In this document: one piece after another, positions 87-40,028 of the stretch
Layout: each line of letters begins with the position of its first letter
Numbering within the stretch: position 1 is the stretch's first letter
Source of the DNA: Thermodesulfovibrionales bacterium
GTDB lineage: Bacteria; Nitrospirota; Thermodesulfovibrionia; Thermodesulfovibrionales; UBA9159
DNA: 58,054 nucleotides
Assembly (NCBI GenBank): GCA_035686305.1
Contig: DASRZP010000002.1
Coordinates: 1-58,054 of the forward strand
Direction: 5' to 3'
Translations under genes and position numbers: made by a program
The notes under the pieces: generated by a model
Databases searched by the model: none
What the model was told of the DNA's origin: nothing
What the model saw: only the letters and a program-made list of their open reading frames with translations

Positions 87-130
87 AACCCGGATCGATC
101 CGGTCATTGGATCGACCCGGGTTTTTATTT
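87..130 (+). terminator. intrinsic terminator-like hairpin in the leader of the first PEP-CTERM gene
   Basis: AACCCGGATCGATCC (87-101) pairs with GGATCGACCCGGGTT (109-123) apart from a small internal mismatch. A T-rich tract follows (TTTATTTT, 123-130). It lies between leader motif A and the start codon at 203, so it is placed to act as an attenuator. It could also simply end an upstream transcript outside the window. Confidence 0.6.
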
Positions 131-202
131 TGGGCGTTCGATTCCAAAAAACCACTGCCATCGGCAGTAATGGATATTTTGAGGTGCAAAGGAGAAAAGA
201 GG

Positions 203-7655: not shown

Positions 7656-7695
7656 CGGGCACAAAATTTAGATCAAGAAAAGAGGAGAAACTAAC

Positions 7696-8268: not shown

Positions 8269-8294
8269 GAGTTTTGGTGGTCCTTGGCACGGAA

Positions 8295-8318
8295 AGGCCC
8301 TGCCGTGAGGCAGGGCCT
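8295..8318 (+). terminator. strong hairpin, probable transcription terminator
   Basis: AGGCCCTGCC pairs perfectly with GGCAGGGCCT around a GTGA loop, 26 bp after the stop of the PEP-CTERM gene. The tract after it (CGTCC) is not T-rich, so termination may need help or may be weak. Confidence 0.6.
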
Positions 8319-8382
8319 CGTCCTAAGCGTATGCCGCCAATCAGCTCAGTGGGTTTCACCCCCTCTCACTTGCGCCGGTCAA

Positions 8383-8438
8383 TTTAACAAAACCTTAACG
8401 TGCCCTTCATCACTCTGTAAAGAATAACCGCTTATACT
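8383..8438 (+). promoter_or_regulatory. Pho-box-like promoter before the divergent exosortase gene
   Basis: Four 7-bp repeats at exact 11-bp steps: TTTAACA (8383), CTTAACG (8394), CTTCATC (8405) and TGTAAAG (8416). A -10-like TATACT (8433-8438) follows after 10 bp. This repeat period, with the box in place of a -35, is the known layout of PhoB/PhoP-activated promoters. The last two repeats are weak. Confidence 0.55.
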
Positions 8439-8490
8439 CTCCGTGCAATTGTCTCATACATAGCCAAGTGCCGATAACGGACCTGAGCAT

Positions 8491-9516
8491 ATGGCCCCAA
8501 AGAAACGGAGAGGAAAACGTGATAAAAGGCGGGCCGGCGCCAAGCAGCATGCTCAAGACATGGCGACTCTGTGGTCCTGGGTCCGGTCCGGGCGTTTTCG
8601 ATTCGCCCTCGCCTTCACGCTCTCCTGCCTCGGCCTCTACTGGGCAATTTACTCCCTTCCGCCCTCATTGACCGGGACCGTGAATGAGCACACCGCCGCC
8701 GCCCTGGGTATGCTCCTCAATGTCCTCGGCTTTCCCGTCACCACCGTTCGAGACACGGTGTCAGGGGGGGGGCTGGCATTCAGGATCATTCCCGAATGCA
8801 CGCCGCTCTTTTCATCGTGCCTCTTTGCCTGCTTCATAGCCTTCCATCCTGCCGCACTCTCTCAGAAGGCCGTAGGTCTCGTCATGGGAATACCCGCGCT
8901 CTATCTGGGCAATCTTGTCAGGCTTGCAGCGACATATGTCGTCAGCCTCCATGACCGGAGGCTCTTCGATGTGGTCCACGCCTACCTGGGGCAGGTATTC
9001 ACCATCTTCCTGGTAATTATGGTCTGCCTGTTCTGGCTCAAATGGCTTGAGAGGCAGAAGACCGGGGCCGGTGCTGCCATGAAAGCGGCGGGCTTCCTCG
9101 GACGTTTCGCGCTGATATCAGGATGCCTTTTTCTTGTCTGGCTGAGGCTCCATCACTGGTACATCTGGTGCCTGGACCGCCTCATGCTCATCGGGTTCTC
9201 ACTGTTCGGTTACCGCGTCGAGCTTGCGCACGATACGAGCGTCTACTATGAAACCTTCAGTATCGTCATCACCGTATCCCTTGTCCTTGCCGCCAGAAAG
9301 ATACCGGGTGCGATGAGAATCAGGGGGCTCGCCATAGGACTCGGAGCCCTTGTCGCCTTTCATCTTCTTCACAGAATCGACAACGTCCTGATTGCTTACT
9401 TCAATGCTACCGCTGTCCTGCCAGTGGACCTGACGCTCCTCGTAGTCGGGCAGTACATGGTCCCTGCGATCTTATTGTACTCGCTCATTCGCAGTCAACG
9501 GACAGCAAATCCCTAA
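8491..9516 (+). CDS. divergent exosortase/archaeosortase-family membrane protease
   Basis: A 341-residue protein with a Lys/Arg-rich cytosolic N-terminus (1-35) and about eight or nine hydrophobic segments. The exosortase catalytic triad can be placed: Cys103 in PECTPLF, Arg144 in GNLVRLAATY and His163 in VVHAYLGQ. These match the spacing of the Cys, Arg and His of this transpeptidase family. The Cys motif ECTPLF differs from the ACSGLR motif of the second exosortase at 28285, so it probably recognises another tail. The nearby IPTL-like tail of the 1352-5362 protein is a candidate substrate. The half after about residue 190 is an extra membrane domain. A Pho-box-like promoter precedes it. The ribosome site is weak and an internal ATG at 8560 is a possible later start. 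Confidence 0.75.
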   Translation: MAPKKRRGKRDKRRAGAKQHAQDMATLWSWVRSGRFRFALAFTLSCLGLYWAIYSLPPSLTGTVNEHTAAALGMLLNVLGFPVTTVRDTVSGGGLAFRIIPECTPLFSSCLFACFIAFHPAALSQKAVGLVMGIPALYLGNLVRLAATYVVSLHDRRLFDVVHAYLGQVFTIFLVIMVCLFWLKWLERQKTGAGAAMKAAGFLGRFALISGCLFLVWLRLHHWYIWCLDRLMLIGFSLFGYRVELAHDTSVYYETFSIVITVSLVLAARKIPGAMRIRGLAIGLGALVAFHLLHRIDNVLIAYFNATAVLPVDLTLLVVGQYMVPAILLYSLIRSQRTANP

Positions 9517-9549
9517 TGATTTTGCGAGACACACATTCTGTGAAGAATT

Positions 9550-9605
9550 CTTCAACAAATTGAAACAGTATTGTCATAATCCCTTAACAATCACAATGCT
9601 AACAT
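9550..9605 (+). promoter_or_regulatory. Pho-box-like promoter before the porin gene
   Basis: TGTCATA (9572) and CTTAACA (9583) are spaced 11 bp apart. Weaker repeats lie in register upstream (CTTCAAC at 9550, TGAAACA at 9561). A -10-like TAACAT (9600-9605) lies 10 bp after the last repeat. The start codon at 9754 leaves a leader of about 140 nt. Confidence 0.55.
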
Positions 9606-9753
9606 GATGCGAGAAAGAAGACGAAGCTGTTTCACGATTCCTCAGCAACACACATAATTTCATGATCACGCGGAAGGTGCGCATTTGGGTTACCTCAAGG
9701 GGGGCTATTGACCGTGGGGTGAAAAGCGGAAACGTGGTGAGGAGAGAGCATCC

Positions 9754-11520
9754 ATGAAGGGATTTATAACCGTTCTTGTGGCGGCTGCCGTCGTGGGAAT
9801 TGTTGTCATGTCGGGAAGTTTCGCTTTCGGGGAGGACCATGCTCCCGGAAGCGTTGAGGAGGGCGTCGGCGCCCTTGTCGATCTTCTGAAAGAGAAGGGG
9901 ATGCTTACTCAGGATGACGCAGACCGTTTCCATAAAGAATATCGCAAAGAAGCCCCTGATCAGGGTCTCGCTGCCCTGGTGGAGATGCTCAAGAATAAGA
10001 AGATGCTCAGCGAGGAAGAGGCTACCAGATTCACCCGCACCTATGTAACCGGGCCGGCCGGTCAGAAGGTCCCCACGATCGCTTCCGACAGAAGAGACAA
10101 AGAGTATATGGAGAAGATTACCGCGAACGTCACCGAGGAGGTAAAGAAGGGCGTGCAGGAGCAACTGAGGACCGACGTACGGGACGAGGTTGCCAGAGAA
10201 TTGGAAAAAAGGAAGGCGATGGAGGCTGAGAAAGGGACAGGCGTCCATGAGAGCGAACAGATCGATGAGCTGAACCACAAACTATCGGACGTTACACAGA
10301 AAGTTGCGGAACTCTATTCGGGTAAGGCAGCTCAGCTGGCCGCATCAGCTCCTGAGTGGGCCAAGCGGGTCCGCTTCGGCGGTGACGTGCGCCTGCGTTA
10401 TGAAGCCGATCGCTTTGACCAGAACAACGCTGAACTCGCTCAACCCTCCAACCCGAGTCAGCTTATGAATACCAGGATTAACGAGGACCGCTACAAGTAC
10501 CGGGTCCGCGCAGGGGTAGCCGTGGACGTGAATGAGCAGATTGAGGCAGTTGCCCGTCTTTCTACAGGAAACTCATCGAACCCTGTCTCGACAAATTCGA
10601 TCATCGGGGACTTCATGAACAAAGACAACGTCCTCTTCGACCTGGCCTATCTCAAGTGGAAGCCATCGGAGTTCTTCACCGCGTACGGAGGCCGTATCCC
10701 GAACCCCTGGTTTTCGTCGGACCTCCTCTGGGCAAGGGACCTGAACTTTGAAGGCGTGGCCCTGAACACGCACTTTCCCCTCAACGAATCATGGACATCC
10801 TTTGTTACTGTCGGTGCGTTTCCATTGCAGCAGAATGATTTCACACAGCACAGCAAATGGCTCGCGGCAGGACAAATGGGAGCCGAGACGAAAAACCGGT
10901 CGGGCATAACGACCAAAGTCGCGGCAGCATATTACTATTTCACCAACATGAACGGCATCCGCAACACCCCTGAGAATCCCGGCGCCAACAACTGGACAGC
11001 ACCTCTGTTCCAGCAGAAGGGGAACACCTTGTTCAATATCAGCGCAGACCCTTCGACCGTGCTGACGGCCTACGCCTCAGAGTTCAAGGAACTGAATCTC
11101 ATAGGTACCGTCGATATCGGTTTCTGGGACCCTGTGCACGTCGTGTTCCTTGGAGACTTTGTCCAGAACCTCGGTTTTGACAAGCCTGATGTGGCCCGGC
11201 GGACGGGGATCCCGAATCCCCCTCAGAGAACCGTTGGATTTCAACTCGGTCTGACTGTGGGTCATCCGGCGATCCAGGAGTTCGGCAAGTGGAAGGTGTA
11301 CCTCCTTTATAAGTATTTGGGGGCCGATGCCGTCGTGGACGCCTTTACCGATTCTGATTTCCATCTTGGAGGCACGAACGCCAAAGGATGGATCCTGGGG
11401 GCTGACGTTGGATTATTGAAGAACACCTGGGCGACCCTTCGCTGGATGTCGTCTAACGAGATCAACGGACCGAAGCTTGCCATCGATGTGCTTCAGCTGG
11501 ATCTTAACGTGAGATTTTAG
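9754..11520 (+). CDS. outer-membrane porin (putative porin family)
   Basis: A 588-residue protein with a GAGGAGAG ribosome site (9739-9746) and signal peptide (residues 1-26). Residues 30-115 hold two similar short segments (ALVDLLKEKGMLTQDDADRF and ALVEMLKNKKMLSEEEATRF), an oligomerisation-type N-terminus seen in this porin family. Residues 115-190 are charged and probably coiled-coil. From about 205 onward the sequence alternates as in a beta-barrel, beginning VRFGGDVRLRYEADRF, and it ends in VLQLDLNVRF with a terminal Phe as usual for outer-membrane barrels. It probably forms a diffusion channel. The Pho-box-like promoter suggests anion or phosphate uptake, but selectivity cannot be read from sequence. 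A coiled-coil gene follows 10 bp downstream. Confidence 0.85.
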   Translation: MKGFITVLVAAAVVGIVVMSGSFAFGEDHAPGSVEEGVGALVDLLKEKGMLTQDDADRFHKEYRKEAPDQGLAALVEMLKNKKMLSEEEATRFTRTYVTGPAGQKVPTIASDRRDKEYMEKITANVTEEVKKGVQEQLRTDVRDEVARELEKRKAMEAEKGTGVHESEQIDELNHKLSDVTQKVAELYSGKAAQLAASAPEWAKRVRFGGDVRLRYEADRFDQNNAELAQPSNPSQLMNTRINEDRYKYRVRAGVAVDVNEQIEAVARLSTGNSSNPVSTNSIIGDFMNKDNVLFDLAYLKWKPSEFFTAYGGRIPNPWFSSDLLWARDLNFEGVALNTHFPLNESWTSFVTVGAFPLQQNDFTQHSKWLAAGQMGAETKNRSGITTKVAAAYYYFTNMNGIRNTPENPGANNWTAPLFQQKGNTLFNISADPSTVLTAYASEFKELNLIGTVDIGFWDPVHVVFLGDFVQNLGFDKPDVARRTGIPNPPQRTVGFQLGLTVGHPAIQEFGKWKVYLLYKYLGADAVVDAFTDSDFHLGGTNAKGWILGADVGLLKNTWATLRWMSSNEINGPKLAIDVLQLDLNVRF

Positions 11521-11530
11521 GGGGAAGGGG

Positions 11531-12244
11531 ATGGAAAGGCCTGCCTGGTCGAAGATAATGATTCCTGCCGTTGCCTTGATGGCCGGCCTGATTGCAGGAC
11601 TGGGCATAAGCCATATCCAGATCACAAAGGAGCAAACGGCTTTTCAGGAAAAGATCAAAGAGGCAAACAAGAGGATCGCCTTTCTGCAGAAAAAAGCTGT
11701 GGAGGAAAGAAACGAGGCAGCCTATTCCGTGGAACAGAGACTCCGGGGCGACCTGGATAAGCTCGAGAATGAGAAGCAGGCCCTGGCAGGACAGGCGAGG
11801 ACATTGAAGGACCAGATGGAAAAGACGGAAAAGAAACTCGGTGAAGCGGATGAATCAAGTGCGAGGACCAGGAAGGAATTAAGCGAGGCACGTGCTGCTT
11901 CCGACGGCATCAGGAGAGAGGTCCAGGAGATGGAACGGAAGAATAGGGACCTGGCCGATGAGCTCAAGAGGACAGCGGGTGAGAAACAGGCCCTTCAGGC
12001 AGAGCTGAGAAAGATGAGTCAGGATCTCGATACGAGCGAGTCGAATAATGCCGAGCTCTGTATCATTGCAGAGGAGCTCTTAAAGGAATATAAGAACAAG
12101 GGGTTTGGAACGGTCCTTAAGCACAAAGAGCCCCTGACACAGGTCAAGAGAGTCGAGCTGGAACAGTTCGTTCAGAAGTACCATGAAAGGATCGATCAAC
12201 AGAGGGTCAAGAAGAATCACCTCGGCAAGGATTTTGGCGAGTAA
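11531..12244 (+). CDS. membrane-anchored coiled-coil protein
   Basis: A 237-residue protein with ribosome site GGGGAAGGGG (11521-11530) immediately upstream. One N-terminal membrane segment lies at about residues 8-27. A long, highly charged Glu/Lys/Arg coiled coil fills about 32-170 (heptad-like LENEKQALAGQARTLKDQ). A C-terminal globular part contains AELCIIAEELLKEYKNKGFG. I do not recognise a named family. It sits 10 bp after the porin gene and is probably co-transcribed. A role as a periplasm-spanning or partner protein of the porin is a guess from position only. Confidence 0.7.
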   Translation: MERPAWSKIMIPAVALMAGLIAGLGISHIQITKEQTAFQEKIKEANKRIAFLQKKAVEERNEAAYSVEQRLRGDLDKLENEKQALAGQARTLKDQMEKTEKKLGEADESSARTRKELSEARAASDGIRREVQEMERKNRDLADELKRTAGEKQALQAELRKMSQDLDTSESNNAELCIIAEELLKEYKNKGFGTVLKHKEPLTQVKRVELEQFVQKYHERIDQQRVKKNHLGKDFGE

Positions 12245-12460
12245 TGCTTCAGACATCTGAAATTGGAGCAGACTGACCGGTATTGATTGCGGGGGAACGC
12301 CTGATCGTCGGTCTCTCCGGGCTTCATAGAGAATAACAAAGGCCTTCCCGGTTCTGTCCTTTTGAGGCACTGTGACCGAGAGGGCGGAGCATTGAAAAGA
12401 ACTGGCCGTGCCGGAAGACTTCCCCCCAAAAAGAGAAAGTACTCGACGGATTGATAACGC

Positions 12461-28252: not shown

Positions 28253-28284
28253 AGAGAAAGAGATAGTTGGGAAGGAACACAGTA

Positions 28285-29886
28285 ATGAAAGCATTCGAAG
28301 GAATCTCGATCAGCCCTGCGGGTTGGATGAAGGCGACATGTTATGCTGTCGTGCTGTTTCTCGTCTATTATACGGCTCTAAAGGAACTGTATTCTCAATG
28401 GTCGGGAGAGGAGTACTCATACTGCTGGTTTATTCCTTTCATTGTGCTCTACCTGATATGGGAAAAGCGGGCGGAGCTCGGCAGGCTCCCCTCCTCTCCT
28501 TCCTGGCAGGGGCTCGCGCTCCTCTGCATCGGTATCTTTCTTTTCTGGCTGGGTGAACTGGGGGGGGAGTACACTACGCTCTATGTGTCGCTCTGGTTTG
28601 TCATCATCGGGATTGTGTGGCTCCATATAGGCCGGGACAAGATGAAGAGCATTGCATTCCCGTTCGTGGTGATGCTTGCGATGTTCCCCCTGCCGACGTT
28701 TGTCTACACGCGCGTTACCCTATGGGCAAAGATGGTTTCGTCCCAGTTGGGCGCCTGGATGCTCCAGGCAGCAGGAATGCCCGTATATCGCGAGGGCAAC
28801 ATCATCGACCTCGGGTTCACCCGGCTTCAGGTCGTCGACGCCTGCAGCGGTCTCCGGTATATTGTGCCTATGATGCTCATCGGCCTCCTCATTGCATACT
28901 GGTTTAAGGGCCATATCTGGAAGAAAACGGCGCTGTTCCTTTTGTCCCTGCCGCTTTCGATCTTCATGAACAGTTTCAGAATCGCCTTTACCGGCATGTT
29001 ATACAGTATTGTCGGCCCGGCCGCAGCAGAAGGTTTCTTCCATGGCTTTTCCGGATGGCTCGTCTTCATGGCAGCCTTTCCTGTCTTCCTTGCCGGGATG
29101 TGGGTCTTGAAGAGACTGCCCCCGAGGGATGCCGGAAGTGGAGATGCACTGGTGCATGTACGCGCGGATGCAGGGGCGGTGGAGTCCGTCACCCCCGAAA
29201 ACCAGGACAAAGAGGCATCAACGGTGAAGAGACTCCTCCTCCCTCAATTCATCGTCAGCATGGCGATGCTTTTGCTGACTTTCGGATTCTCCCACGGTGT
29301 AGAGTTCCGTCAAAAGGTGCCGGTCAGTAAACCCTTCAACGAGTTTCCCATGGAGGTCGGGGAATGGAAGGGGACCAGCGAACAGATGGAATCGCAGTTT
29401 CGAAATGCCTTGAACTTTAGTGATTATATCATCGCGAATTACAGAAATCCGCAAGGTAAGACGGTGAACTTCTACGTTGCCTACTACCAGGACCAGCGAA
29501 AGGGCGAGTCAATTCATTCGCCGGAATCCTGTCTCCCGGGAAGCGGTTGGGATTTCAAGGACGCCGGTGCAGTAACCGTTCCCCTCAATGATGGCGGGTC
29601 TTCACTGCCGGTGAGCAGGGCTTATATGGAAAAGGCAGGAATGAGGGAACTCACGTACTACTGGTTCCCTCAGCGGGGCCGCACGCTCACAAAGCTCTAC
29701 GAGCTCAAACTGTTCACATTCTGGGACGCGTTGACGAAGCAGAGGACAGACGGCGCATTGGTACGCGTGATAACGCCGGTATACGATTCAGAGGGGATGA
29801 AGGATGCCGAAGAGCGTCTGCAGTCTTTCACGAGAAAGATCGTGCCGGTCCTGGAAGGGTTCATCCCCGGTAAGGACCTGCGGTAA
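28285..29886 (+). CDS. xrtD: exosortase D (VPLPA-CTERM type) fused to EpsI domain
   Basis: A 533-residue protein. The start at 28285 follows GGGAAGGAAC (28268-28277); a TTG at 28267 is less likely. Residues 15-280 form the eight-helix exosortase domain with the full triad: Cys187 in VVDACSGLRY, Arg232 in NSFRIAFTG and His253 in EGFFHGFSGW. Residues 325-533 are an EpsI domain (FPMEVGEWKGTSEQME, GESIHSPESCLPGSGW), fused to the protease as in exosortase D. It should cut the hydrophobic tails of PEP-CTERM proteins and transfer them to an envelope acceptor. The three VPLPA-type proteins at 203, 7696 and 39342 are its likely substrates. The acceptor is probably made by the surrounding polysaccharide genes (family knowledge and inference). 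Confidence 0.85.
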   Translation: MKAFEGISISPAGWMKATCYAVVLFLVYYTALKELYSQWSGEEYSYCWFIPFIVLYLIWEKRAELGRLPSSPSWQGLALLCIGIFLFWLGELGGEYTTLYVSLWFVIIGIVWLHIGRDKMKSIAFPFVVMLAMFPLPTFVYTRVTLWAKMVSSQLGAWMLQAAGMPVYREGNIIDLGFTRLQVVDACSGLRYIVPMMLIGLLIAYWFKGHIWKKTALFLLSLPLSIFMNSFRIAFTGMLYSIVGPAAAEGFFHGFSGWLVFMAAFPVFLAGMWVLKRLPPRDAGSGDALVHVRADAGAVESVTPENQDKEASTVKRLLLPQFIVSMAMLLLTFGFSHGVEFRQKVPVSKPFNEFPMEVGEWKGTSEQMESQFRNALNFSDYIIANYRNPQGKTVNFYVAYYQDQRKGESIHSPESCLPGSGWDFKDAGAVTVPLNDGGSSLPVSRAYMEKAGMRELTYYWFPQRGRTLTKLYELKLFTFWDALTKQRTDGALVRVITPVYDSEGMKDAEERLQSFTRKIVPVLEGFIPGKDLR

Positions 29887-29891
29887 GCCTC

Positions 29892-31535
29892 ATGATATAC
29901 GCAACGACCCTGCTGATGTCGGTGTTCATCACCGTCAGCCTGATGCCGATCACGGTGAAGCTGGCAACCAGGTATCAAATGGTTGATTTCCCCAACCCGC
30001 GAAAGGTACACGTGCGACCTGTGCCGAGGATCGGAGGTCTGGCGATGGCTGCCGGAGCCTTTCTTCCGATCATCATCTGGATGCCGTCGGATCAATTTGT
30101 GAGGGCCTTCATGGCATCGACGGGTACGCTTGTGCTGTTCGGTTTCGTTGATGATATGAAAGGACTTGGATACAAGACAAAATTTGCCGGACAGATCCTC
30201 GCGGCAGTGATCATCGTGGTCTTCGGAGGCGTCAGGATAGACTCCATGGGAAGCCTCCTGCCTGGCGGAATGCAATTGCCTGGGTGGTTTTCTTTCCCCT
30301 TCACTCTCGTCGCGATTGTTGGTGTCACAAATGCCGTCAACATGGCCGATGGCCTGGACGGTCTGGCAGGCGGCATTTCCCTTCTCGTACTGTGCTGTAT
30401 AGGATATCTTGCCCATATTCAGGGGAATACCGTTGTTATCCTTCTGTCATTGGCACTGGCAGGCGCGATTTTCGGATTCCTCCGCTATAACACCTATCCT
30501 GCGAATATCTTCATGGGCGATACAGGAAGCCAGCTCCTCGGGTTTGCGTCGGTGGTGCTTGCAATGAAGGTTACCCAGGGCGACACGCCCTTCAGCCCCG
30601 TCTTGCCGCTGATCATCCTCGGCTTTCCCATCCTCGATACGCTGACCGTTATGGCGGAACGGATAAGAGAGGGCAGGTCTCCCTTCTCTCCGGACAAGAA
30701 CCACTTTCATCACCGGCTCATGGGCCTCGGACTTTCACATACCGAGGCGGTCTTCGCGATCTATCTTGTCCAGGCGGCGATGATCGTTTCAGCCATCCTC
30801 TTCAAGTATTACTCGGATTGGGCGCTTGTTATCTCGTATGCCGTTTTTTCCGCAGTCGTCATAAGCGCCTTTGCCGTTGCCGGCAGGAAAGGGTATCGCT
30901 TCTCATGGCATCCGGTGATCGGTCAGATGATCAGGGGGAGATTGCGAAGAATCAGGGATGACAACTGGATTACCAGGATATCATTCGCCCTCTCGAGTAT
31001 AATCGTTCCGGTGCTCCTTCTCTTGTCCTGCCTTCTTCCTGCAAATATCCCCGGATATGTCTCTTTCATCGCCGTGTGCTTCTCTTTGCTCATCGTAGCG
31101 GTTCGGCTCCTTTGGAAGGGGCAGATGGGTTTCTGCCTGAGGTTTGTGGTCTATCTGACTGTCCCCCTTGTCCTCTACCTCATTCGGGAAGGCAGAGGGG
31201 CCTGGCACGGCGAAATAATGTTCACCCTGTATCATCTCTCCTTCGGTCTGACGGCGCTCTTCGTTCTTCTCTCGGTGAAATACGCGAATAATACGAAGGC
31301 ATTCAGGATGACGACCATGGACTTTCTCGTTATCTTCATCGCCGTTGTCGTGCCCAATCTGCCTGACCAGTCGATCCAGAACTACCACCTGGGACTTCTC
31401 GCGGTAGAGATCATCGTGCTGTTATTCAGTTATGAAGTCCTGATTACCGAGCGTCGGGGAAGACTCGATGCCTTAACAGCTTCGACCCTGCTGGCCCTGA
31501 CACTCCTCGCTATAAGGGGCGGAGCGGGATTATAG
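29892..31535 (+). CDS. WecA/MraY-like sugar-1-phosphate transferase with long C-terminal membrane extension
   Basis: A 547-residue membrane protein that starts the lipid-linked sugar chain by transferring a GlcNAc-1-phosphate-type unit to undecaprenyl phosphate. Signature motifs: FVDDMKGL (86-92), NAVNMADGLDG (147-157), FMGDTGSQLLGF (207-218) and HFHHRLMGLG (271-280). The first 330 residues match the usual whole length of WecA. About 215 further residues carry some six more hydrophobic segments with no motif I know. This is an unusual fusion or extension. The gene lies 5 bp after exosortase D, and such pairing is common in exosortase-linked exopolysaccharide loci. Confidence 0.85.
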   Translation: MIYATTLLMSVFITVSLMPITVKLATRYQMVDFPNPRKVHVRPVPRIGGLAMAAGAFLPIIIWMPSDQFVRAFMASTGTLVLFGFVDDMKGLGYKTKFAGQILAAVIIVVFGGVRIDSMGSLLPGGMQLPGWFSFPFTLVAIVGVTNAVNMADGLDGLAGGISLLVLCCIGYLAHIQGNTVVILLSLALAGAIFGFLRYNTYPANIFMGDTGSQLLGFASVVLAMKVTQGDTPFSPVLPLIILGFPILDTLTVMAERIREGRSPFSPDKNHFHHRLMGLGLSHTEAVFAIYLVQAAMIVSAILFKYYSDWALVISYAVFSAVVISAFAVAGRKGYRFSWHPVIGQMIRGRLRRIRDDNWITRISFALSSIIVPVLLLLSCLLPANIPGYVSFIAVCFSLLIVAVRLLWKGQMGFCLRFVVYLTVPLVLYLIREGRGAWHGEIMFTLYHLSFGLTALFVLLSVKYANNTKAFRMTTMDFLVIFIAVVVPNLPDQSIQNYHLGLLAVEIIVLLFSYEVLITERRGRLDALTASTLLALTLLAIRGGAGL

Positions 31536-31550
31536 CAAAGAACGATGTCT

Positions 31551-31600
31551 TGGAGGGGTAGGCCTGTGTGCCTAGCCGGTCTTCAGGAGACGCCCCTCCA
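31551..31600 (+). other. long stem-loop between the WecA-like and TPR genes
   Basis: TGGAGGGG (31551-31558) pairs with CCCCTCCA (31593-31600). A nested TAGGC/GCCTA hairpin (31559-31563 with 31570-31574) lies inside. No T tract follows. It ends 16 bp before the AAGGAGG ribosome site of the next gene, so it could tune processing, termination or translation within the operon. Confidence 0.5.
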
Positions 31601-31627
31601 CAGCAAGCAAAATAAGGAGGAGATCTC

Positions 31628-33625
31628 ATGTTCATGAAGCGTAGAATGATGCTCGGAGTGGCGATGATGCTGACTGCTGTCGCGCTTTTGTCGGGCTGCG
31701 GCGGGCCGGAGGAAAAGAAGGCCAAGTTTTACAGCAAGGGCAAGGCGTTGTATGAAAGAGGGGATTATGTGAAAGCCGGACTGGAGTTTAAGAATGCCGT
31801 CCAGATCGATCCCAAGTATGCTGACGCTTACTACATGCTCGGGCTCGTCGCACTGAAATCAGGAGACCCCAGGGCCGCGTACGGGAGTTTTTCCAAAGTC
31901 GTAGAACTCTCGCCGCAGCACGCCGGCGCCCAGATACAACTCGGCTGGTTTCTGTTAGGTGCAGGGAAGACAGGCGAGGCGATGGATAAGGTTGAACTCG
32001 TCCTGAAGGGCGAACCGAAAGACGAGGATGCCCTTATTCTCAAAGGGGCTGTCTTGGTGAAGAAGAAGCGTAATGACGAGGCCCGTCGATTCCTGGAATC
32101 CGTTGTGGGACGGGATATCCGAAAACCGGAGGGCTATCTGCTCCTGAGCTCTCTTTACGCGCAGAAGGGAGATACGGAGGGTGTCGAAAAGAGACTGCTC
32201 GAGGGTATAAAGCTCAATGAAAAGGCGGTGCCTCTCCACCTGGCCCTTGCAGACCTTTACCTGAAAACGAAGAGGACCGATGAGGCAGCGGGCGTTATGC
32301 AGAAGCTCGTCAAACTGGAGCCTGAGGCATCCCGGCATCATCTTACGCTCGCAGGGATTTACTGGAATGCAGGCAAAGAACAGCAGGCTGTGGACGTGCT
32401 GAAATCATTCGTATCGGCCGATCCGAAAAAGGAGGAACGATGGGTCCAGACGGCAGACTTCTATAATACGAGGAACAGACCGGCCGAAGCCGAACAGCAG
32501 TTAAAAGAAGGAATCCGCGTGAACGAGAAAAGCTTCCGGATTCGCTTTGCCCTGAGCGCGCTGTATGTGAGTACCAACCGCCCTGATCAAGCCATCGCTG
32601 CACTTCAGGAATGTCTGAAGCTGGAGAAGGATTCGGCGAATCCCCAGGTCCTCTATGCGAAGAATTCTCTTGCCCAAATCTATTTTGCCCGGCAGGCAAT
32701 CGACAAAGCAACAAAATATCTCGATGAGGTGCTCAAGGAAAGCCCGAAGAACCTCGATGCAAATTACCTGAAGGGTACCATCCATCTCAGAAAGCTGGAA
32801 GGGGTGCAGGCAGTTTCATCGTTCCGGACCGTGATCAGCGACAACCCGCAATTCATTCCGGGATACATCAGTCTTGCCGAAGCTCATGCCGTGAATAAGG
32901 AGATGAATCTTGCCTTCGACACCCTCCGGGATGCATTGAAGATCGCGCCCGGTTCAAGGGATGTGATCCGCGCAATGGCCCGCCTCTACGGGGTCCAGAA
33001 AGATTTCAAGAATGCCGAAGCCCAATATCGCGGGCTTCTTGCTGCCAATCCCAAAGACCTTGAAGTCAGGGCCGACCTGGGGGACCTCATGATGAGGGCA
33101 GGGGATTTCAGAAAGGCAGAGACCGAATACGCTGCTATAGAGAGGCTGGCGCCCAACCATCCCCTGGGCTATGTCAAACTGAGCGCCTGTTACATGGCAC
33201 AAAGAAAATGGGACAAGGCAATCGCAGAACTTGAGAATGTCGTGCGCACCCATCCGGAGCTGTGGTCGCCTGCGAATGATCTCGCGTACCTCTTGACTGA
33301 ATACGGCGGAGGAAGGAAAGACCTCGACCGGGCTCTTCTCCTCGCAGAGAAGGCGAAATCTCTGAATCCTGACAATCCCGCTGTCATGGATACCGTCGGC
33401 TGGATCAACTACCGGAAGGGTGATCTGAATCAGGCCGTTGCCCTACTCGCTAAGGCGCAGGAGAAGGCCCCTGGGAACCCCTCGATCAATTATCATCTGG
33501 GTATGGCATATAGCCGCGCCGGCGACGCCTCGAAGGCGAAGGAATATCTGAAGATTGCACTCGCTTCAAAGACCGATTTCCCCGGCAAGGAGGAGGCTGA
33601 GAAGACCATGGCAGGGATCCGTTAG
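31628..33625 (+). CDS. TPR-repeat lipoprotein of the exosortase system (PrsT-like)
   Basis: A 665-residue lipoprotein with ribosome site AAGGAGGAG (31614-31622) and a lipobox LLSGCG with the lipidated Cys near residue 24. The mature part is a long array of tetratricopeptide repeats (for example YYMLGLVALKSGDPRAAYGSFSKVV, WINYRKGDLNQAVALLAKAQ) giving an all-helical scaffold. It resembles the large TPR lipoprotein regularly found beside exosortase and exopolysaccharide genes, though that family is usually longer, near 850-900 residues. It probably organises the export or sorting machinery at the periplasmic side of a membrane. Confidence 0.8.
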   Translation: MFMKRRMMLGVAMMLTAVALLSGCGGPEEKKAKFYSKGKALYERGDYVKAGLEFKNAVQIDPKYADAYYMLGLVALKSGDPRAAYGSFSKVVELSPQHAGAQIQLGWFLLGAGKTGEAMDKVELVLKGEPKDEDALILKGAVLVKKKRNDEARRFLESVVGRDIRKPEGYLLLSSLYAQKGDTEGVEKRLLEGIKLNEKAVPLHLALADLYLKTKRTDEAAGVMQKLVKLEPEASRHHLTLAGIYWNAGKEQQAVDVLKSFVSADPKKEERWVQTADFYNTRNRPAEAEQQLKEGIRVNEKSFRIRFALSALYVSTNRPDQAIAALQECLKLEKDSANPQVLYAKNSLAQIYFARQAIDKATKYLDEVLKESPKNLDANYLKGTIHLRKLEGVQAVSSFRTVISDNPQFIPGYISLAEAHAVNKEMNLAFDTLRDALKIAPGSRDVIRAMARLYGVQKDFKNAEAQYRGLLAANPKDLEVRADLGDLMMRAGDFRKAETEYAAIERLAPNHPLGYVKLSACYMAQRKWDKAIAELENVVRTHPELWSPANDLAYLLTEYGGGRKDLDRALLLAEKAKSLNPDNPAVMDTVGWINYRKGDLNQAVALLAKAQEKAPGNPSINYHLGMAYSRAGDASKAKEYLKIALASKTDFPGKEEAEKTMAGIR

Positions 33626-33762
33626 CACATCTGAAAATGAGTTGAGAAGTCCTTAGCATCGGAAAGCCTGGATCGAGGGATGATCGTTTGATCTTGATTC
33701 AGGCTTTCTGCCACTGAAGCACTCCAGGCGAACTGCCGATTCGACCCTGCCTGAAACACAAT

Positions 33763-33807
33763 CTTAACAGAAGTGTAATAAAACGGTAATGACCTTTGGG
33801 TTAGCAT
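33763..33807 (+). promoter_or_regulatory. Pho-box-like promoter before the polysaccharide export operon
   Basis: Three repeats at 11-bp steps: CTTAACA (33763), TGTAATA (33774) and GGTAATG (33785). A -10-like TAGCAT (33802-33807) follows after 10 bp. It would drive the genes from 33900 to 38211. The 274-bp gap before the gene holds nothing else I can identify. Confidence 0.55.
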
Positions 33808-33899
33808 GTTCAGTCAGCGAAACTAGTACGGCAAGAGACCCATCGTAAGAATACTGTGGCGCAAGCTGCGTTACGAGAACTGTCGTGGAACGAACGAGA

Positions 33900-34538
33900 A
33901 TGCTTCGGATAGTACTGACTCTCATAATGGCCGGGACCCTCGTCGCCTCCTCTCCGGTCCTGTCGCGGGCTGGAGGCGAAGATATCTCCGCTCCCCCGGG
34001 GTCCGAGGCAGCGGCAACCCCCGAAACGTCTCCGACGGAAGGGGCGCCCGATGCGTCGAGTTATCTCATAGGGCCGGGAGATGTGCTTGATGTTGCCGTG
34101 TGGAAGGATGAGGCTTTAACGCGGTCGTGCATTGTGCGGCCCGATGGGGCCATCTCATTCCCTCTGATCGGAGAAGTGCGTGTTGAGGGGAGGACCGTAG
34201 CCGACGTCAAAGAAGAGATGGAAAAGAGGCTCGACCGTTATGTCCCGGGGACGACGCTGTCAGTTGAGGTCAAGCAGGTGAACAGCATGATCATTTACGT
34301 CATCGGCAAAGTCAACGCGCCCGGCCGGTACATCATGAATACCAATGTCAATGTCCTGCAGGCCCTCGCCACTGCCGGGGGTCTCAATATCTTCGCGAAG
34401 AGGAACAAGATTAAGATATTCCGGCAGGAAGACCACGAGACCGTCATCTTTCCCTTTGAATACGACGAGGTTGTCGAAGGTAAGCGGCTCGATCGGAACA
34501 TCATGCTCAAACGGGGCGACATTGTCGTCATCCCCTGA
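33900..34538 (+). CDS. Wza-like polysaccharide export protein
   Basis: A 212-residue exported protein, started at the ATG at 33900; a GTG at 33885 would add five residues and neither has a strong ribosome site. A signal segment covers about 1-22. A linker rich in Pro, Ala and Glu leads into the polysaccharide export domain (YLIGPGDVLDVAVWKDEALTR, IVRPDGAISFPLIGEV). A SLBB-type domain follows (VIGKVNAPGRYIMNTNVNVLQALATAGG). It lacks a lipobox Cys, unlike E. coli Wza. It should form or line the periplasm/outer-membrane export channel for the polysaccharide. Its stop overlaps the next start by one base. Confidence 0.85.
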   Translation: MLRIVLTLIMAGTLVASSPVLSRAGGEDISAPPGSEAAATPETSPTEGAPDASSYLIGPGDVLDVAVWKDEALTRSCIVRPDGAISFPLIGEVRVEGRTVADVKEEMEKRLDRYVPGTTLSVEVKQVNSMIIYVIGKVNAPGRYIMNTNVNVLQALATAGGLNIFAKRNKIKIFRQEDHETVIFPFEYDEVVEGKRLDRNIMLKRGDIVVIP

Positions 34539-35767
34539 TGCTCTATGTGCCCGTACTCCTTTCTATCCTCTTGCTCCTGTCATGCGCGGCGCCCGGATGG
34601 GGAGACGACTTCAGCATTGTTCCGTCAATCACGGTCAAAGAGGAATATAATACGAACATCTTGCTGGCGGCAAGCGATATGAAGGATGATTTCATCACCA
34701 CGATCTCTCCAGGTTTGGAAATCGTCGACCATACAGGGCGTTTCGATGGAGATCTGCTTGTTCGATTCGACAGGCTCGAATATGCCGAAAACCAGGGCCT
34801 CAGCGCGACAAATAAGACCTACAGCGGAAGACTGCGGTACCTCGTCACGCCCCTGCTCGGCATTTCAGCCGAAGCGTCCTATGTGAGGCTTCCCAATCCG
34901 GCCCTCGTTACGGGGAGTACCGGCATCGTGACGACAAAGTCTCCCTGGGACCGTATTACTTCTTCCCTGTCCGCTGACTATCGGCTTACCGAAAAGGCAG
35001 CAGCGCAACTCTCCTATAGCTACGCCAGGGACCATTTTGAAAATGCGACGAGCAGTAACGATACGTCCCACAATCTGAACGCAGGGCTCGAATACGATCT
35101 CAGCGAGTACTTCCCCTCGGTGAAGGGGAGACTGAATGCCGGGTACGGTCATTATTTCTCCAGCACTTCCCGGACCGATAATATCGCGGGTACAGTGGGT
35201 TTTTCACGGCAGATTGATGAACTCTGGAGTGTAAGCGCCGACATTGGACCCATTTACGTAAGGTCCACCGTGCTTGTAGGTCAGTTGGTACCTGATTTTT
35301 TGGACATCGACGGCCTGGAGATCCCCGTTGGCTACCACGTGGTCACGGAACAACGGACTAATTCAGGCTGGGGATGGTGGGGAAAGGCCTCGCTCAATTA
35401 TGGCGGTGAATACGTCAATGGCGCTCTAGCTTACACGAGGAGTCTCAGCACCTCGACCGGTTACAACGGTGCAGCCGAGAGCAATGCCGTGACGCTCTCG
35501 GCCCAGTATCGGCTTGCTTCAGAGCTGTCGGCCCTCTTTTCTTCCTCCTACTACACGCTCAAATCCGACCCTTCACGATTCTCCTCGCAGGTTATCAACC
35601 AGAAGACTCTGGTGGTCAGCCCCTCGCTCCGCTACGAATTCTCGAAAGATATGGCCATGGAGCTGTCCTACGAATACACCAAGGTCGACTATCCTGCGTC
35701 AAACACCTCGGCGAACAGACAGGTGATCTCTCTTCGCCTGTTATTCCAGAGCCCCTTGTTCCATTAG
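34538..35767 (+). CDS. outer-membrane beta-barrel protein of the exosortase/EPS system
   Basis: A 409-residue protein with a signal peptide (residues 1-22) whose start overlaps the stop of the export gene (TGATG). The mature part shows alternating polar and hydrophobic strands throughout (SGRLRYLVTPLLGISAEASYV, AAAQLSYSYARDHFENAT) and a barrel-type end VISLRLLFQSPLFH. It resembles the uncharacterised beta-barrel family found beside PEP-CTERM export genes and the EpsL type. A role as an outer-membrane conduit or anchor for the polymer is inferred from position. Confidence 0.75.
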   Translation: MLYVPVLLSILLLLSCAAPGWGDDFSIVPSITVKEEYNTNILLAASDMKDDFITTISPGLEIVDHTGRFDGDLLVRFDRLEYAENQGLSATNKTYSGRLRYLVTPLLGISAEASYVRLPNPALVTGSTGIVTTKSPWDRITSSLSADYRLTEKAAAQLSYSYARDHFENATSSNDTSHNLNAGLEYDLSEYFPSVKGRLNAGYGHYFSSTSRTDNIAGTVGFSRQIDELWSVSADIGPIYVRSTVLVGQLVPDFLDIDGLEIPVGYHVVTEQRTNSGWGWWGKASLNYGGEYVNGALAYTRSLSTSTGYNGAAESNAVTLSAQYRLASELSALFSSSYYTLKSDPSRFSSQVINQKTLVVSPSLRYEFSKDMAMELSYEYTKVDYPASNTSANRQVISLRLLFQSPLFH

Positions 35768-35795
35768 GGTGATCAAGAGAAATGAGGGAAGTGTT

Positions 35796-37367
35796 GTGAA
35801 ACAAAATGAGGCGATAAAGATCGGGGATGTCCTCGCGATAGCGAAGAGGCGACGGTTGGCGCTTCTTGTGCCGGCCCTTGCGGTCTTCCTCCTGTCGGCG
35901 GGGGTCGTGGTGCTTTTGGAGCCTGTGTACCGCTCCACATCGACGATCCTGGTCGAAGAGCAGGAAATCCCCAGGGAATATGTCATGGCAACGGTGACGA
36001 GCTTCGTGGAGCAGCGTCTCCAGAGCATCAACCAGAGGATCATGAGCTCGGCCCGTCTCCTCGAGATCATCAACCGCTTCAACCTCTACGCTGATAAACG
36101 GAGCAGGCTGACTACGGAAGAGATCATCGACGGCATGAGAAAGAAGGATATAAAGTTCGAGACTGTCATGGCAGACGTGATAGACCGCCGGACAGGCCAG
36201 AAGACCGCTGCGACCATCGCCTTTACCGTGTCCTACGAGGGAAAGAACCCCATGGTGGTCCAGCAGGTCGCCAATGTCCTTGCTTCTCTCTATCTCGAGG
36301 AGAACATGAAGGTGGTAGGTCAGCAGACAGCCGGAACCTCGAAATTCCTCGAGGACGAGATGAAGACCGTCCAGACGCACCTGCTGTCGTTAGAGAAGAA
36401 GATAGCCGAGTACAAGGAGAAGAACCCTCGTTCACTTCCCGAGCTCCTCAATTACAACCTCCAGACCCTGGACTGGGCCGACAGGAGTTTCGATCAGTTC
36501 CATGACCAGCTCCGTACCCTGAGAGAGAAGGAGAGCTATCTGCAGAGCCAGCTCACGAGCATGGAGCCTGATGCAAAGAATCAGGACAAGGAACTCCTGA
36601 AGGATCTGAGGGCGAAGCTGGTAATGCTCAGGTCGAAGTATTCCGACGAGTATCCCGACGTGAAGAAGACAAAGAAGGAAATCGCCGAGCTTGAAGAGAG
36701 ACTCCGCGCCGAAAACGGTAAGGAGCCGAACCCGGAAAAACCGGACAACCCTGCCTATGTTGCCCTTGCCGCACAATTGGCCAGCACCCAGTCCGAGATC
36801 AAGTCAGTCACACGGCAGATAAGTGATCTGGAGAAGAAGAGAGACGATTACAGCCAAAGGTTGGAGATGTCACCCAGGGTGGAGGAGGGGTACAAGAACC
36901 TGATGGTGGAGAGAAACAATACCCAGGCCAAGTATGACGATCTCATGAAGAAGTTTATGGAGGCGAGGGTGGCTCAGGGCCTCGAAAAAGGCCAAATGGG
37001 AGAGCGCTTCACCGTGATTGATCCTGCGAGGCTCCCGGAAAAACCGGTAAGACCGAACCGCCCCGCGATCCTCCTGATCGGCCTCATTTTGGGGGTCGGA
37101 TCTGGCGCGGGAACAGCGTGGCTGCGGGAGGCCGGTGACAGTTCTGCGCGCAGCCATGAAGATCTTGCTGCGCGGTTCCCTTTCCCCGTTCTTGCAGAGA
37201 TACCGGAGATTGTCACCCTGGAGGATGAGCTTCGAAAGAGGAGACGGATAAGGGTGATTGTCGGTACAGCGTTGCTCCTGATGGTTGCCCTCGTCATGGC
37301 CCTCCATTTCTTTGTGATCGATCTGAACGTCCTTTGGGCTCGTGTCGCACGACGTTTGCCGGGCTGA
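35796..37367 (+). CDS. Wzz-like polysaccharide chain-length/co-polymerase protein
   Basis: A 523-residue inner-membrane protein. The GTG at 35796 is chosen for its GAGGGAAG ribosome site; a GTG at 35769 would add nine residues. A first membrane helix lies near 25-45, then the Wzz domain (VYRSTSTILVEEQEIP). A long periplasmic coiled coil covers about 180-370. The GNVR-like region ends in LPEKPVRPNRPAILLIGLILG, a Pro-rich motif just before a second helix. A third hydrophobic segment lies near the C-terminus. It controls chain length with the polymerase and hands on to the ATPase encoded next. Confidence 0.85.
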   Translation: MKQNEAIKIGDVLAIAKRRRLALLVPALAVFLLSAGVVVLLEPVYRSTSTILVEEQEIPREYVMATVTSFVEQRLQSINQRIMSSARLLEIINRFNLYADKRSRLTTEEIIDGMRKKDIKFETVMADVIDRRTGQKTAATIAFTVSYEGKNPMVVQQVANVLASLYLEENMKVVGQQTAGTSKFLEDEMKTVQTHLLSLEKKIAEYKEKNPRSLPELLNYNLQTLDWADRSFDQFHDQLRTLREKESYLQSQLTSMEPDAKNQDKELLKDLRAKLVMLRSKYSDEYPDVKKTKKEIAELEERLRAENGKEPNPEKPDNPAYVALAAQLASTQSEIKSVTRQISDLEKKRDDYSQRLEMSPRVEEGYKNLMVERNNTQAKYDDLMKKFMEARVAQGLEKGQMGERFTVIDPARLPEKPVRPNRPAILLIGLILGVGSGAGTAWLREAGDSSARSHEDLAARFPFPVLAEIPEIVTLEDELRKRRRIRVIVGTALLLMVALVMALHFFVIDLNVLWARVARRLPG

Positions 37368-37404
37368 ATAGGAAAGAGTGTTTATTTTTAAGGAAGTGGA
37401 AGAA

Positions 37405-38211
37405 ATGATACGGAAGATAAGGAAGGCGCTGACGTCGTTCAATAGAAAGAGTCCGGAGAAGAAGAGCGGGGAAAGATCCGGGCCCCCTGTGCAGATCAAT
37501 CCCGAAGAAAAAGACAAGGAGATATCCGGATGGGTCTCTCCAAAGTACTCTCAATCCCGGACTGTCGACTTGGACCCCGGGGTCATCGCCAGGAACCGTT
37601 GTCTTGCCTATCTCGACAATATGCCGGAGGCTGAGTCTTACAGGGTCCTGCGGACACATCTCCTGCAGCGGACCAGGGGGTCAGGGAGCAACACCATCAT
37701 GGTTACCAGCGCCCTGCCGGGAGAGGGGAAGACCCTTGCGGCCATTAATCTCGCCTTCACCTTCGCCCGTGAGTTTCAGCATACGGTCTTGCTTATTGAT
37801 GGCGATCTGAGAAATCAGAGTATTCATAAGTATTTGGGATACGCCAGCGAAAAGGGGTTGATAGATCACCTCGTGGACGGCTCGCCCCTTTCCGAATTAA
37901 TCACGTGGCCGGGAGTCGAAAAAATGACGCTTATCTCCGGCGGCCGTTCCTACAAGGAAAGCGCAGAAATCCTCGGATCGCCCCTCATGAAAAAACTGGT
38001 GTCGGAGATGAAGACGCGCTATCCCGAACGGTATCTTCTTTTTGATCTCCCTCCCATCCTGACCGGCGCAGATGTCCTGGCTTTTGCCCCGCTTGTAGAT
38101 TATGTGGTTGTCGTTGTTCAGGCAGGCAAGACATCGATGGACGATGTTAAGAGGGCGCTCCAGTTCCTTCCGAAGGAGAAGATCCTGGGATTTATTCTGA
38201 ACAGATGTTAG
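37405..38211 (+). CDS. CpsD/CapB-like cytosolic ATPase (BY-kinase family)
   Basis: A 268-residue protein started at 37405, after AAGGAAG and GGAAG. Walker A is SALPGEGKT (102-110), Walker A' is VLLIDGDLR (128-136) and Walker B is YLLFDLPP. A CapB-like N-terminal segment AESYRVLRTHLL (near 76) matches the kinase-activating Wzz-contact region. The chain ends just after FILNRC, without the usual Tyr-rich tail that is autophosphorylated in BY-kinases. It therefore may work as a switch ATPase or phosphorylate another protein. It pairs with the Wzz-like protein as a split Wzc. Confidence 0.8.
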   Translation: MIRKIRKALTSFNRKSPEKKSGERSGPPVQINPEEKDKEISGWVSPKYSQSRTVDLDPGVIARNRCLAYLDNMPEAESYRVLRTHLLQRTRGSGSNTIMVTSALPGEGKTLAAINLAFTFAREFQHTVLLIDGDLRNQSIHKYLGYASEKGLIDHLVDGSPLSELITWPGVEKMTLISGGRSYKESAEILGSPLMKKLVSEMKTRYPERYLLFDLPPILTGADVLAFAPLVDYVVVVVQAGKTSMDDVKRALQFLPKEKILGFILNRC

Positions 38212-38514
38212 CCTTTGTCCTGGATCGTGGTTACTGGTAGCATCAATCGGAGGCAAGTAATGAAAGACGCGCTCCCGAGCATGAGGCAATGTACGAATTG
38301 GTCCTTTCGCGACTGAAAGTAAGATAAAAACAATTATCAAGGCTGCAGGCCGTTTATTTGCCTTCTTCCTGACGTTATCGGCATGTTTGTCCGTTGTATA
38401 TAACTGAAGGGTATGGTAGCCTGTAGACGAGAGGACGAGAAGGCTAAACCATCTGGAGAAGGTCGCTTTTTTTACTTTGTAAGTGAAGATGGATAGCAGA
38501 AAGAGAGGTGCATT
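38212..38514 (+). other. 303-bp intergenic region
   Basis: No gene is supported. An imperfect hairpin AAGGCTGCAGGCC ... GGCCGTTTATTTGCCTT near 38339-38367 might end the upstream operon. A TATATA near 38397 could be a weak -10 for the repeat-protein gene. Both are low confidence. Confidence 0.3.
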
Positions 38515-39204
38515 ATGTACGCCGAAGGAGTCAGTGATATACCGTACCATGAAAGAATCGGAATTGCAGGCACGACGGTCAAGGAAGGTATCGTAGGCAG
38601 TCTGAAGGGGATTAATGAGATCGAGGCTGAGATCGTAAGTCTCGTGAGGAATACCGTGTCGAACACCCTCCGGGCCGGCGGAGCTGTGGCGGGCGAGAGC
38701 CTGTCAATCACAAAGGAGGTGCTCAAGGGCGCCATAACCGCAACAGAGGAGGTCGGCGCCGGTCTTGTTCTGAGCACAAAGAGCGTGGCAAAGGGCATTG
38801 TCATGGGAGTGAGCGATATTGGTGGAGACGTTGTTACGGTTGCGAGCCAGACGGCGAAGGGTGCGGTCAAGGGAGCTGCGGAAGTTGGAGCCGACATCGC
38901 TCTTGTGGCACGGAGGGCTGTTGACGGGGTGATCGAGGCTGCCAAGGAAATCGGAGGAAACGTGACTGACGTTGCCAAGGCTGCCGTAGGAGGAGCGATC
39001 GAAGGAGCGGGCAGTATCGGAAACACAGCCCTGAAGGCGGTAAAAGACATGCTCGTCGGAGTTGTGGAGGGCGTCAAGGAGATCGGAAATACCGCTTTTT
39101 CGAGACCACGGATGGAAAGGGAAGCGCGTGAGCAGCATGCCCCGCGTACCGAGGGGGAGCTCGCCGATGCGTATATGAGGAAAGGGAGGCAGAAAAAGTC
39201 GTAA
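38515..39204 (+). CDS. protein built from eight 22-residue amphipathic repeats
   Basis: A 229-residue protein with ribosome site AGAGAGG. No signal peptide or membrane helix is clear. From residue 25 to 200 the sequence divides into eight units of exactly 22 residues, for example TAKGAVKGAAEVGADIALVA (start of unit 113-134), AVDGVIEAAKEIGGNVTDVA (135-156) and AVGGAIEGAGSIGNTALKAV (157-178). Gly and small residues recur at fixed positions, with hydrophobic residues every 3-4. A 22-residue (2 x 11) period is typical of amphipathic lipid-surface helices such as apolipoproteins, and 11-mer repeats occur in other surface-binding proteins. The function is unknown; membrane or polymer-surface binding is an inference. 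A basic, Arg/Glu-rich tail follows. Confidence 0.75.
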   Translation: MYAEGVSDIPYHERIGIAGTTVKEGIVGSLKGINEIEAEIVSLVRNTVSNTLRAGGAVAGESLSITKEVLKGAITATEEVGAGLVLSTKSVAKGIVMGVSDIGGDVVTVASQTAKGAVKGAAEVGADIALVARRAVDGVIEAAKEIGGNVTDVAKAAVGGAIEGAGSIGNTALKAVKDMLVGVVEGVKEIGNTAFSRPRMEREAREQHAPRTEGELADAYMRKGRQKKS

Positions 39205-39341: not shown

Positions 39342-40028
39342 TCAGCTCAGCTTTTTCCTGAGCCCGACAAGACCAACCAGACCGGGGCCGAAAAGCCACA
39401 GCGCGGCAGGAATTGGTGTAGGCGTTACTGTCATACCCACGTCGCCACCGGAATGCAGGCTTTGCCCATTCGAGGTAAAAGTACCCAGTACGGAGAGTGA
39501 ATATAAGCCGCCGGCAATTGAGCCGTTGCTGTTGGTACCGTTAAAGGAACTGCTGGTATAGGGACCTAAGGCACTGATTGCTGAACCTGTGATTCCACCA
39601 TAAAGTTGATTGGTCGGATCATAGTAAGCCTGGAACACGTCGTTACCGCCACCCAGTGTTCCACCTGCTGTGAGCGTCACCCCGGCAGGTCCCGTTGTAA
39701 AACCTGTTTCGCTCAGTGCAATCTTTAGCCACTTACCACTGGTGGTGGGACCTGATGATATGCCAAAGTTAAGGTCCATCTCAGGGGCGGATAGAGAGCC
39801 TACCAGGGGAGAGCCCAATCCCACATTCTGCGAAAATGTCCAGCTGCCGAGAGTCCCATCAATCTTAATTATCTGCCCTGACCCAGGGACGGTCTCCGGA
39901 ACGGTCACCGAATTGCCGTCGCTGTCCCACAACTTCATCTCGAAGGTGGCATAGGCTGTCGAGTTGATCGCAGTCAGAGCGACCATTGCCAAAAGCATAA
40001 CAACGGCCATTTTCTTAGCTGTTTGCAT
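39342..40028 (-). CDS. PEP-CTERM (VPLPA-type) sorted surface protein
   Basis: A 228-residue secreted protein with an AGAAAGGAGGTG ribosome site and a signal peptide (residues 1-27, ending STAYA). The mature part is Gly/Ser/Thr-rich, with a beta-rich pattern such as GTLGSWTFSQNVGLGSPLVG. No catalytic motif is visible. The tail has Pro-Ile-Pro-Ala, ALWLFGPGLVGLVG and a short basic end LRKKLS. It is expressed divergently from the ParA gene. It has the most complete upstream regulation in the window: a Pho-box-like promoter (40222-40266), a conserved leader motif and a 17-bp terminator hairpin, all before the ribosome site. Confidence 0.85.
   Translation of the reverse strand: MQTAKKMAVVMLLAMVALTAINSTAYATFEMKLWDSDGNSVTVPETVPGSGQIIKIDGTLGSWTFSQNVGLGSPLVGSLSAPEMDLNFGISSGPTTSGKWLKIALSETGFTTGPAGVTLTAGGTLGGGNDVFQAYYDPTNQLYGGITGSAISALGPYTSSSFNGTNSNGSIAGGLYSLSVLGTFTSNGQSLHSGGDVGMTVTPTPIPAALWLFGPGLVGLVGLRKKLS

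Follow-up and report, generated by a model that had tools for sequence, protein, structure and literature searches.

In the DNA analysed here, a 58,054-nucleotide stretch of contig DASRZP010000002.1 from a Thermodesulfovibrionales bacterium (UBA9159; hereafter the window), lies a gene whose product is built of 22-residue repeats, and the question that it raises is what such a protein does in the cell. The initial annotation proposed that the repeats are amphipathic helices of the kind that lie on lipid surfaces, and that the protein may coat membranes or storage granules from the cytosol. We examined this proposal through the protein's repeats, relatives, gene neighborhoods, and predicted fold.

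The 22-residue array and its family

The features of the gene are listed in table 1. Within the core of the protein (residues 14–199), a lag of 22 gave the highest self-match (mean BLOSUM62 score 1.24, with 45 of 164 positions identical), compared with a best-lag mean of −0.07 (sd 0.10, maximum 0.45) in 1000 shuffles scanned over lags 5–89. Lags 44 and 88 were also prominent, and lag 11 was weak (26 of 175). The repeats had been described as eight exact copies; this holds for length and spacing, which are free of gaps, but not for sequence, since units within one protein are only ~23% identical. The array placed at residues 25–200 in the initial annotation is the same array in another phase. 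The unit has Gly or Ala at positions 2, 3, 15, and 19, Val or Ile at 1, 13, and 17, Lys or Arg at 10, and an acidic residue at 22, and the fixed placement of Gly and small residues was borne out across the family, with Gly in 73% of units at position 15, 61% at position 2, and 47% at position 19 (plus 45% Ala). Neither a signal peptide nor a PEP-CTERM motif was seen in the window protein, and no stretch of it resembles a transmembrane segment (maximum 19-residue Kyte–Doolittle value 1.26).

Table 1. Positions in the window of the repeat-protein gene and its parts
Feature	Position	Strand	Basis
Shine–Dalgarno-like GAGAGG, six bases 5' of ATG	38503..38508	+	direct reading
Repeat-protein gene, 229 aa, ATG start, orphan paralogue of operon family	38515..39204	+	ORF call, translation, tree
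Eight ungapped 22-residue units, residues 14–189	38554..39081	+	self-match lag, family alignment
Half unit ending the array, residues 190–199	39082..39111	+	self-match lag, AlphaFold2 model
Variable charged tail, residues 200–229, low-confidence/disordered prediction	39112..39201	+	alignment, AlphaFold2 model

The product of the window gene is one member of a highly conserved bacterial family without a name, whose proteins consist of eight 22-residue helical repeats. No Pfam or NCBIfam model covers this family, for which a scan of genome contigs recovered at least 62 relatives, counted as species loci, in the Nitrospirota, desulfobacteria, Geobacteraceae, Brocadiales, Methylomirabilis, and Pseudomonadota. 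The core is gap-free in 56 of 61 aligned proteins and interrupted by a few residues only in the remainder. For every unit compared (488/488) the best match outside its own protein was the unit of the same number, indicating that the eight units are old, mutually distinct, and kept in order. The spread of the family is patchy: within the window's order, 26 of 149 genomes have a member. A scan of plasmid and phage records for relatives gave no matches; on these grounds, and because a match to PHROG tape-measure proteins (E 2e-4) covers only part of very long models, a phage tape-measure or plasmid origin was rejected.

Three family members are encoded in the genome that carries the window. One, on contig C63, sits in a full operon of DUF5132, HMA_2, repeat protein, ATPase, and MetK genes (locus L110, contig C63:62000–80000, positions 6437–12380). 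The window copy, by contrast, is an orphan that does not directly precede an HMA_2–P2A ATPase gene. It forms a supported tree group (97/93) with the third copy, on contig C29, and with a copy from another UBA9159 locus (L006), which places it in a lineage of free-standing paralogues. The C29 and L006 copies are each followed by a DUF3562 gene (L111:6749–7093 and L006:2742–3008), which also lies behind MetK in many complete operons. Comparison of the window gene with its two paralogues gave a dN of 0.17 with saturated dS, as expected of a real gene, and codon positions 1 and 2 are 81–90% identical versus just 37–42% at position 3, indicating purifying selection.

The region upstream of the window gene (28267–38211) holds an exopolysaccharide locus with exosortase, tyrosine-kinase-like, and PEP-CTERM-type export genes, and several PEP-CTERM-like proteins are encoded in the window (107–895, 7696–8268, and 39342–40028). 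Flanking by an export operon or PEP-CTERM genes was not seen at any other family locus examined, including those of the two other copies in the same genome, and the position of the window gene therefore carries little information. A role in exopolysaccharide or PEP-CTERM biology drawn from this context was rejected accordingly.

Ion-pump and lipid-synthase neighborhoods

A P-type ATPase of the P2A (Ca/Mn) type is encoded directly downstream of the family gene in 48 of 62 assessable loci, representing at least four phyla, and is absent from that place in 14. HMA_2 and DUF5132 genes lie upstream in 46 and 47 loci, respectively, and MetK comes next in 38 of 50. Within the window's order (149 genomes), 22 genomes encode both the repeat protein and the ATPase, and 4 and 9 have just one of the two (Fisher p = 2e-15, uncorrected for kinship). 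Nine genomes of one family (f3) have ATPase and DUF5132 but no repeat protein, indicating that the repeat protein is an added, dispensable fourth part that the pump does not need; DUF5132, HMA_2, and ATPase are all present in three of the f3 loci (L124, L125, and L126).

The ATPase bears an N-terminal HMA_2-like domain of its own. Its best matches are PMR1/SERCA-type models, at scores under their equivalog cut-offs, and human SPCA1 structures, and it retains the PEGLP motif in 38 of 40 sequences and the N..D ion-site motif of M6 in 39 of 40, so that it is probably a Ca/Mn-type pump. The separate HMA_2 proteins of the operon may resemble CoBaHMA domains, a putative calcyanin-type link to calcium carbonate. 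Pst phosphate-uptake genes are often found near the operon. Ferrosome (fez) clusters likewise combine small proteins and a P-type ATPase in one operon; however, the ATPase here is of the P2A and not the heavy-metal P1B-6/fez type, and identity with ferrosomes was rejected. We found no published description of a function for the DUF5132–HMA_2–repeat protein–ATPase–MetK operon. Such a constant pairing of the family with a Ca/Mn-type pump suggests a compartment or membrane domain that is loaded with ions, and the phyla that bear the operon include ones with reported intracellular minerals, namely the Nitrospirota, in which intracellular carbonates have been reported but the underlying genes are not known (PMC12710302).

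The setting is different in the Burkholderiales family searched, where 10 of 245 genomes encode the repeat protein. In nine of these ten, a wax-ester synthase/DGAT (WS_DGAT_C match) is encoded within 2 kb of the repeat gene, and because each such genome has only one to four WS/DGAT genes, chance does not explain the adjacency. Other close neighbors include acyl-CoA synthetases, fatty-acyl-reductase-like proteins, GMC oxidoreductases, and patatins. A further Burkholderiales copy (L162) lies beside a P2A-type ATPase and so joins the ion-pump and lipid contexts. A search for WS/DGAT in the window's order (149 genomes) found none; control genomes in that search gave no match either, but the same query matched ten Burkholderiales genomes, and we take the absence as real. 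Most known coat proteins of bacterial lipid droplets come from actinobacteria, and a conserved gene beside WS/DGAT in Burkholderiales would be a direct, testable candidate for such a coat.

Helix chemistry, predicted fold, and distant resemblances

Read as a 3-11 helix, the window protein has a mean hydrophobic moment of 0.33 (hydrophobic 0.47, aromatic 0, charged 0.22), and the moments of single units (0.26–0.47) have nearly the same phase in all eight, a coherence that is partly a consequence of the 22-residue repeat itself. The usual lipid-binding threshold in HeliQuest is D 1.34; no 18-residue window exceeded it, although 14 of 168 fell in the grey zone, and the net charge of the protein is zero. 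A helical-wheel check of the proposed lipid-surface helices was divided, the moment and its phase speaking for them and HeliQuest against. On the polar face, Lys/Arg are set apart from Asp/Glu, each on a different side (p = 0.001, label permutation), a separation with p < 0.05 in 98% of family members, which are not independent of one another.

The apolipoproteins invoked at the outset share a 22-residue helical unit with a breaker between units, Pro in the 22-mers of apolipoprotein A-I and Gly pairs here, but they are secreted and have no sequence match to the family. The protein also resembles perilipin 4 and the perilipin 11-mer region, which are likewise ungapped repeats in multiples of 11, rich in Gly, Val, and Thr, with a weak hydrophobic moment, almost no aromatic residues, and a polar face that carries its lysines on one side (PMC5889406, PMC8064757). 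In Plin4 such a separation of charges has been tied to lateral helix contacts (PMC5889406, PMC8064757). The mean moment and composition of the window protein are near those of Plin3 (moment, hydrophobic, aromatic, and charged values of 0.35, 0.37, 0.01, and 0.23) and alpha-synuclein (0.30, 0.47, 0.02, and 0.24), and above those of Plin4 (PMC5889406, Table 1). Droplets can be coated even by weak helices, as the case of Plin4 demonstrates. Perilipin 4, however, has 29 near-identical 33-mers and is unfolded in solution, whereas the bacterial protein has eight diverged, strongly conserved units and is predicted to fold; no sequence match of the window protein to perilipin was found. Alpha-synuclein, an 11-mer repeat amphipathic helix with nearly identical composition figures, has fewer repeats and no counterpart of the operon or of WS/DGAT.

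Two AlphaFold2 models were built on largely different alignments. In the first, each unit is predicted to be a single helix, with tight turns at Gly, in a compact array (pLDDT >90 for residues 91–180); in the second, led by a Burkholderiales protein and drawing on 14 of the more divergent sequences, the later units take the same form and the first two are merged. Such a predicted compact fold is an outcome that the initial annotation had itself set against lipid-surface helices. The solved structures closest to the model are designed helical repeat proteins (5cwb DHR4 and 4uos; Foldseek E 2.4e-4, TM 0.57/0.65), and the family profile also matches 4uos (E 7e-4). These proteins resemble the prediction in fold but are artificial and have two helices per repeat, as opposed to one helix per 22 residues here. 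No match below E 0.05 was found in a viral structure library. Because AlphaFold predictions of senescence domains have been judged unreliable (PMC10705495, PMC8079945), the repeat-protein model is also to be read with caution.

Several lipid-surface families weakly match members of the family, and we treat these matches as resemblance rather than homology, given that they fall in differing registers and that the unrelated GCIP_N also scores among members; the GCIP_N and PHROG tape-measure matches indicate that long helical families score by composition too. Senescence (PF06911) matches 13 of 54 members, the best being L053 (9944–10579; 28.0 bits versus a cut-off of 24.6, E 2.4e-6), which alone exceeds the cut-off among the matches inspected individually. 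Reported from eukaryotes, the senescence domain localizes to lipid droplets and also acts in lipid transfer (PMC10705495, PMC8079945). The spartin/ERD7 domain thus offers a multi-helix, droplet-binding parallel and the best-scoring Pfam family in the set, but it leaves the window protein unmatched, varies in register among members, and has no described 22-residue array (PMC10705495, PMC8079945). Phasin_2 (PF09361) scores 12.5 bits on the window protein, against a cut-off of 24.9. Synuclein matches one of 54 members (Pfam E 0.013, under cut-off), and a PDB search gave alpha-synuclein at E 0.89; both are at chance level. We do not claim membership of the perilipins, phasins, or senescence-domain proteins.

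A possible surface coat or pump-complex scaffold

Weighing these results, we favor a soluble, helical protein that acts as a coat or scaffold on lipid or organelle surfaces inside the cell, an explanation to which, judging from sequence, we assign a probability of roughly 45%. It is preferred on account of the WS/DGAT adjacency, the ATPase operon, the Plin3- and alpha-synuclein-like figures, and the charge separation, and is backed by the lipid-surface families (Senescence, Phasin_2, and Synuclein) among the weak Pfam matches. The protein, with its eight amphipathic 22-residue helical units, would be soluble in the cytoplasm, and probably many copies of it would pack next to one another on the cytoplasmic face of lipid-bounded bodies inside the cell. 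These would be neutral-lipid droplets in Burkholderiales; in Nitrospirota, desulfobacteria, Brocadiales, and Methylomirabilis they would be the membrane or vesicles that hold the P2A cation ATPase. Contact with lipid would be made by the weakly hydrophobic faces, and adjacent helices would be held to one another through their one-sided Lys and Glu/Asp edges, in the manner suggested for perilipin 4. In solution the protein would take the compact form of the AlphaFold2 models, with one helix per unit, and this bundle would then open. The window copy, a duplicated free-standing version under purifying selection, may serve one such body. The cytosolic coat of the initial annotation survives in part through the cytosolic, helical character of the protein, its moment, scarce aromatics and one-sided lysines, the WS/DGAT neighbors, and a PHA synthase in the same genome. 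Against it stand the compact arrays, like those of designed repeat proteins; the failure of any window to reach D 1.34, with zero net charge; a fixed length and unit-specific conservation, which are more in keeping with a defined fold than with a loose coat; partners that mostly belong to the ion-pump operon; the lack of WS/DGAT in the window's order; and the lack of any Pfam match at 0.1 for the window protein. In its most specific form, a perilipin- or spartin-senescence-like bacterial family that coats droplets in Burkholderiales and, in Nitrospirota, desulfobacteria, and Brocadiales, a previously undescribed membrane compartment that a P2A Ca/Mn-type ATPase would load, with the window copy as a free-standing coat protein of such a body, the proposal is unlikely.

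The chief rival, which we consider somewhat unlikely, is a compact alpha-helical repeat scaffold that works off lipid and binds the P2A ATPase, HMA_2, or DUF5132 in assembly, regulation, or ion handover, its Burkholderiales copies being re-used beside WS/DGAT as a protein scaffold. The conserved operon, the confident compact prediction, the gapless core with its unit-specific conservation, and the copy at L162 that still adjoins an ATPase all suit it, as do Gly at helix ends and a G/A-xxx-G/A face fit for tight packing. The f3 genomes that keep pump and DUF5132 without it, the lipid synthases beside the Burkholderiales copies, and the persistence of orphan copies argue against it. That the protein coats polyhydroxyalkanoate granules of this organism in the manner of a phasin is very unlikely: the genome does encode a PHA synthase that exceeds its Pfam cut-off, and Phasin_2 matches 6 of 54 members (best E 0.036), but every such match is under cut-off, the synthase gene is on a different, small contig and has no family copy near it, and PHA synthase does not recur beside the family in the neighbor clusters examined. 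Highly improbable is a stress protectant like the group 3 LEA proteins, disordered until dried, despite the 11/22-residue periodicity, the richness in Ala, Gly, Lys, and Glu, and the absence of aromatics. In LEA proteins the number of repeats varies and their conservation is poor, whereas repeat number, register, and unit identity are fixed here, and the operon contains no stress genes. Finally, a Gly-rich helical protein tied to the neighboring exopolysaccharide/exosortase locus is barely credible; the gene follows a tyrosine-kinase-like gene by ~300 bases on the same strand, but relatives and both other copies in the genome lack this context, and the protein shows neither a signal peptide nor a PEP-CTERM motif.

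Two further arrangements were noted. At L055 (8852–10591) two tandem family genes precede the ATPase, the first a much diverged 325-aa version with 30% identity. In Noviherbaspirillum, three copies with identical scores (L133, L134, and L135) lie beside IS3-like transposase ORFs and a UspA-like gene, which suggests recent copying of a large segment.
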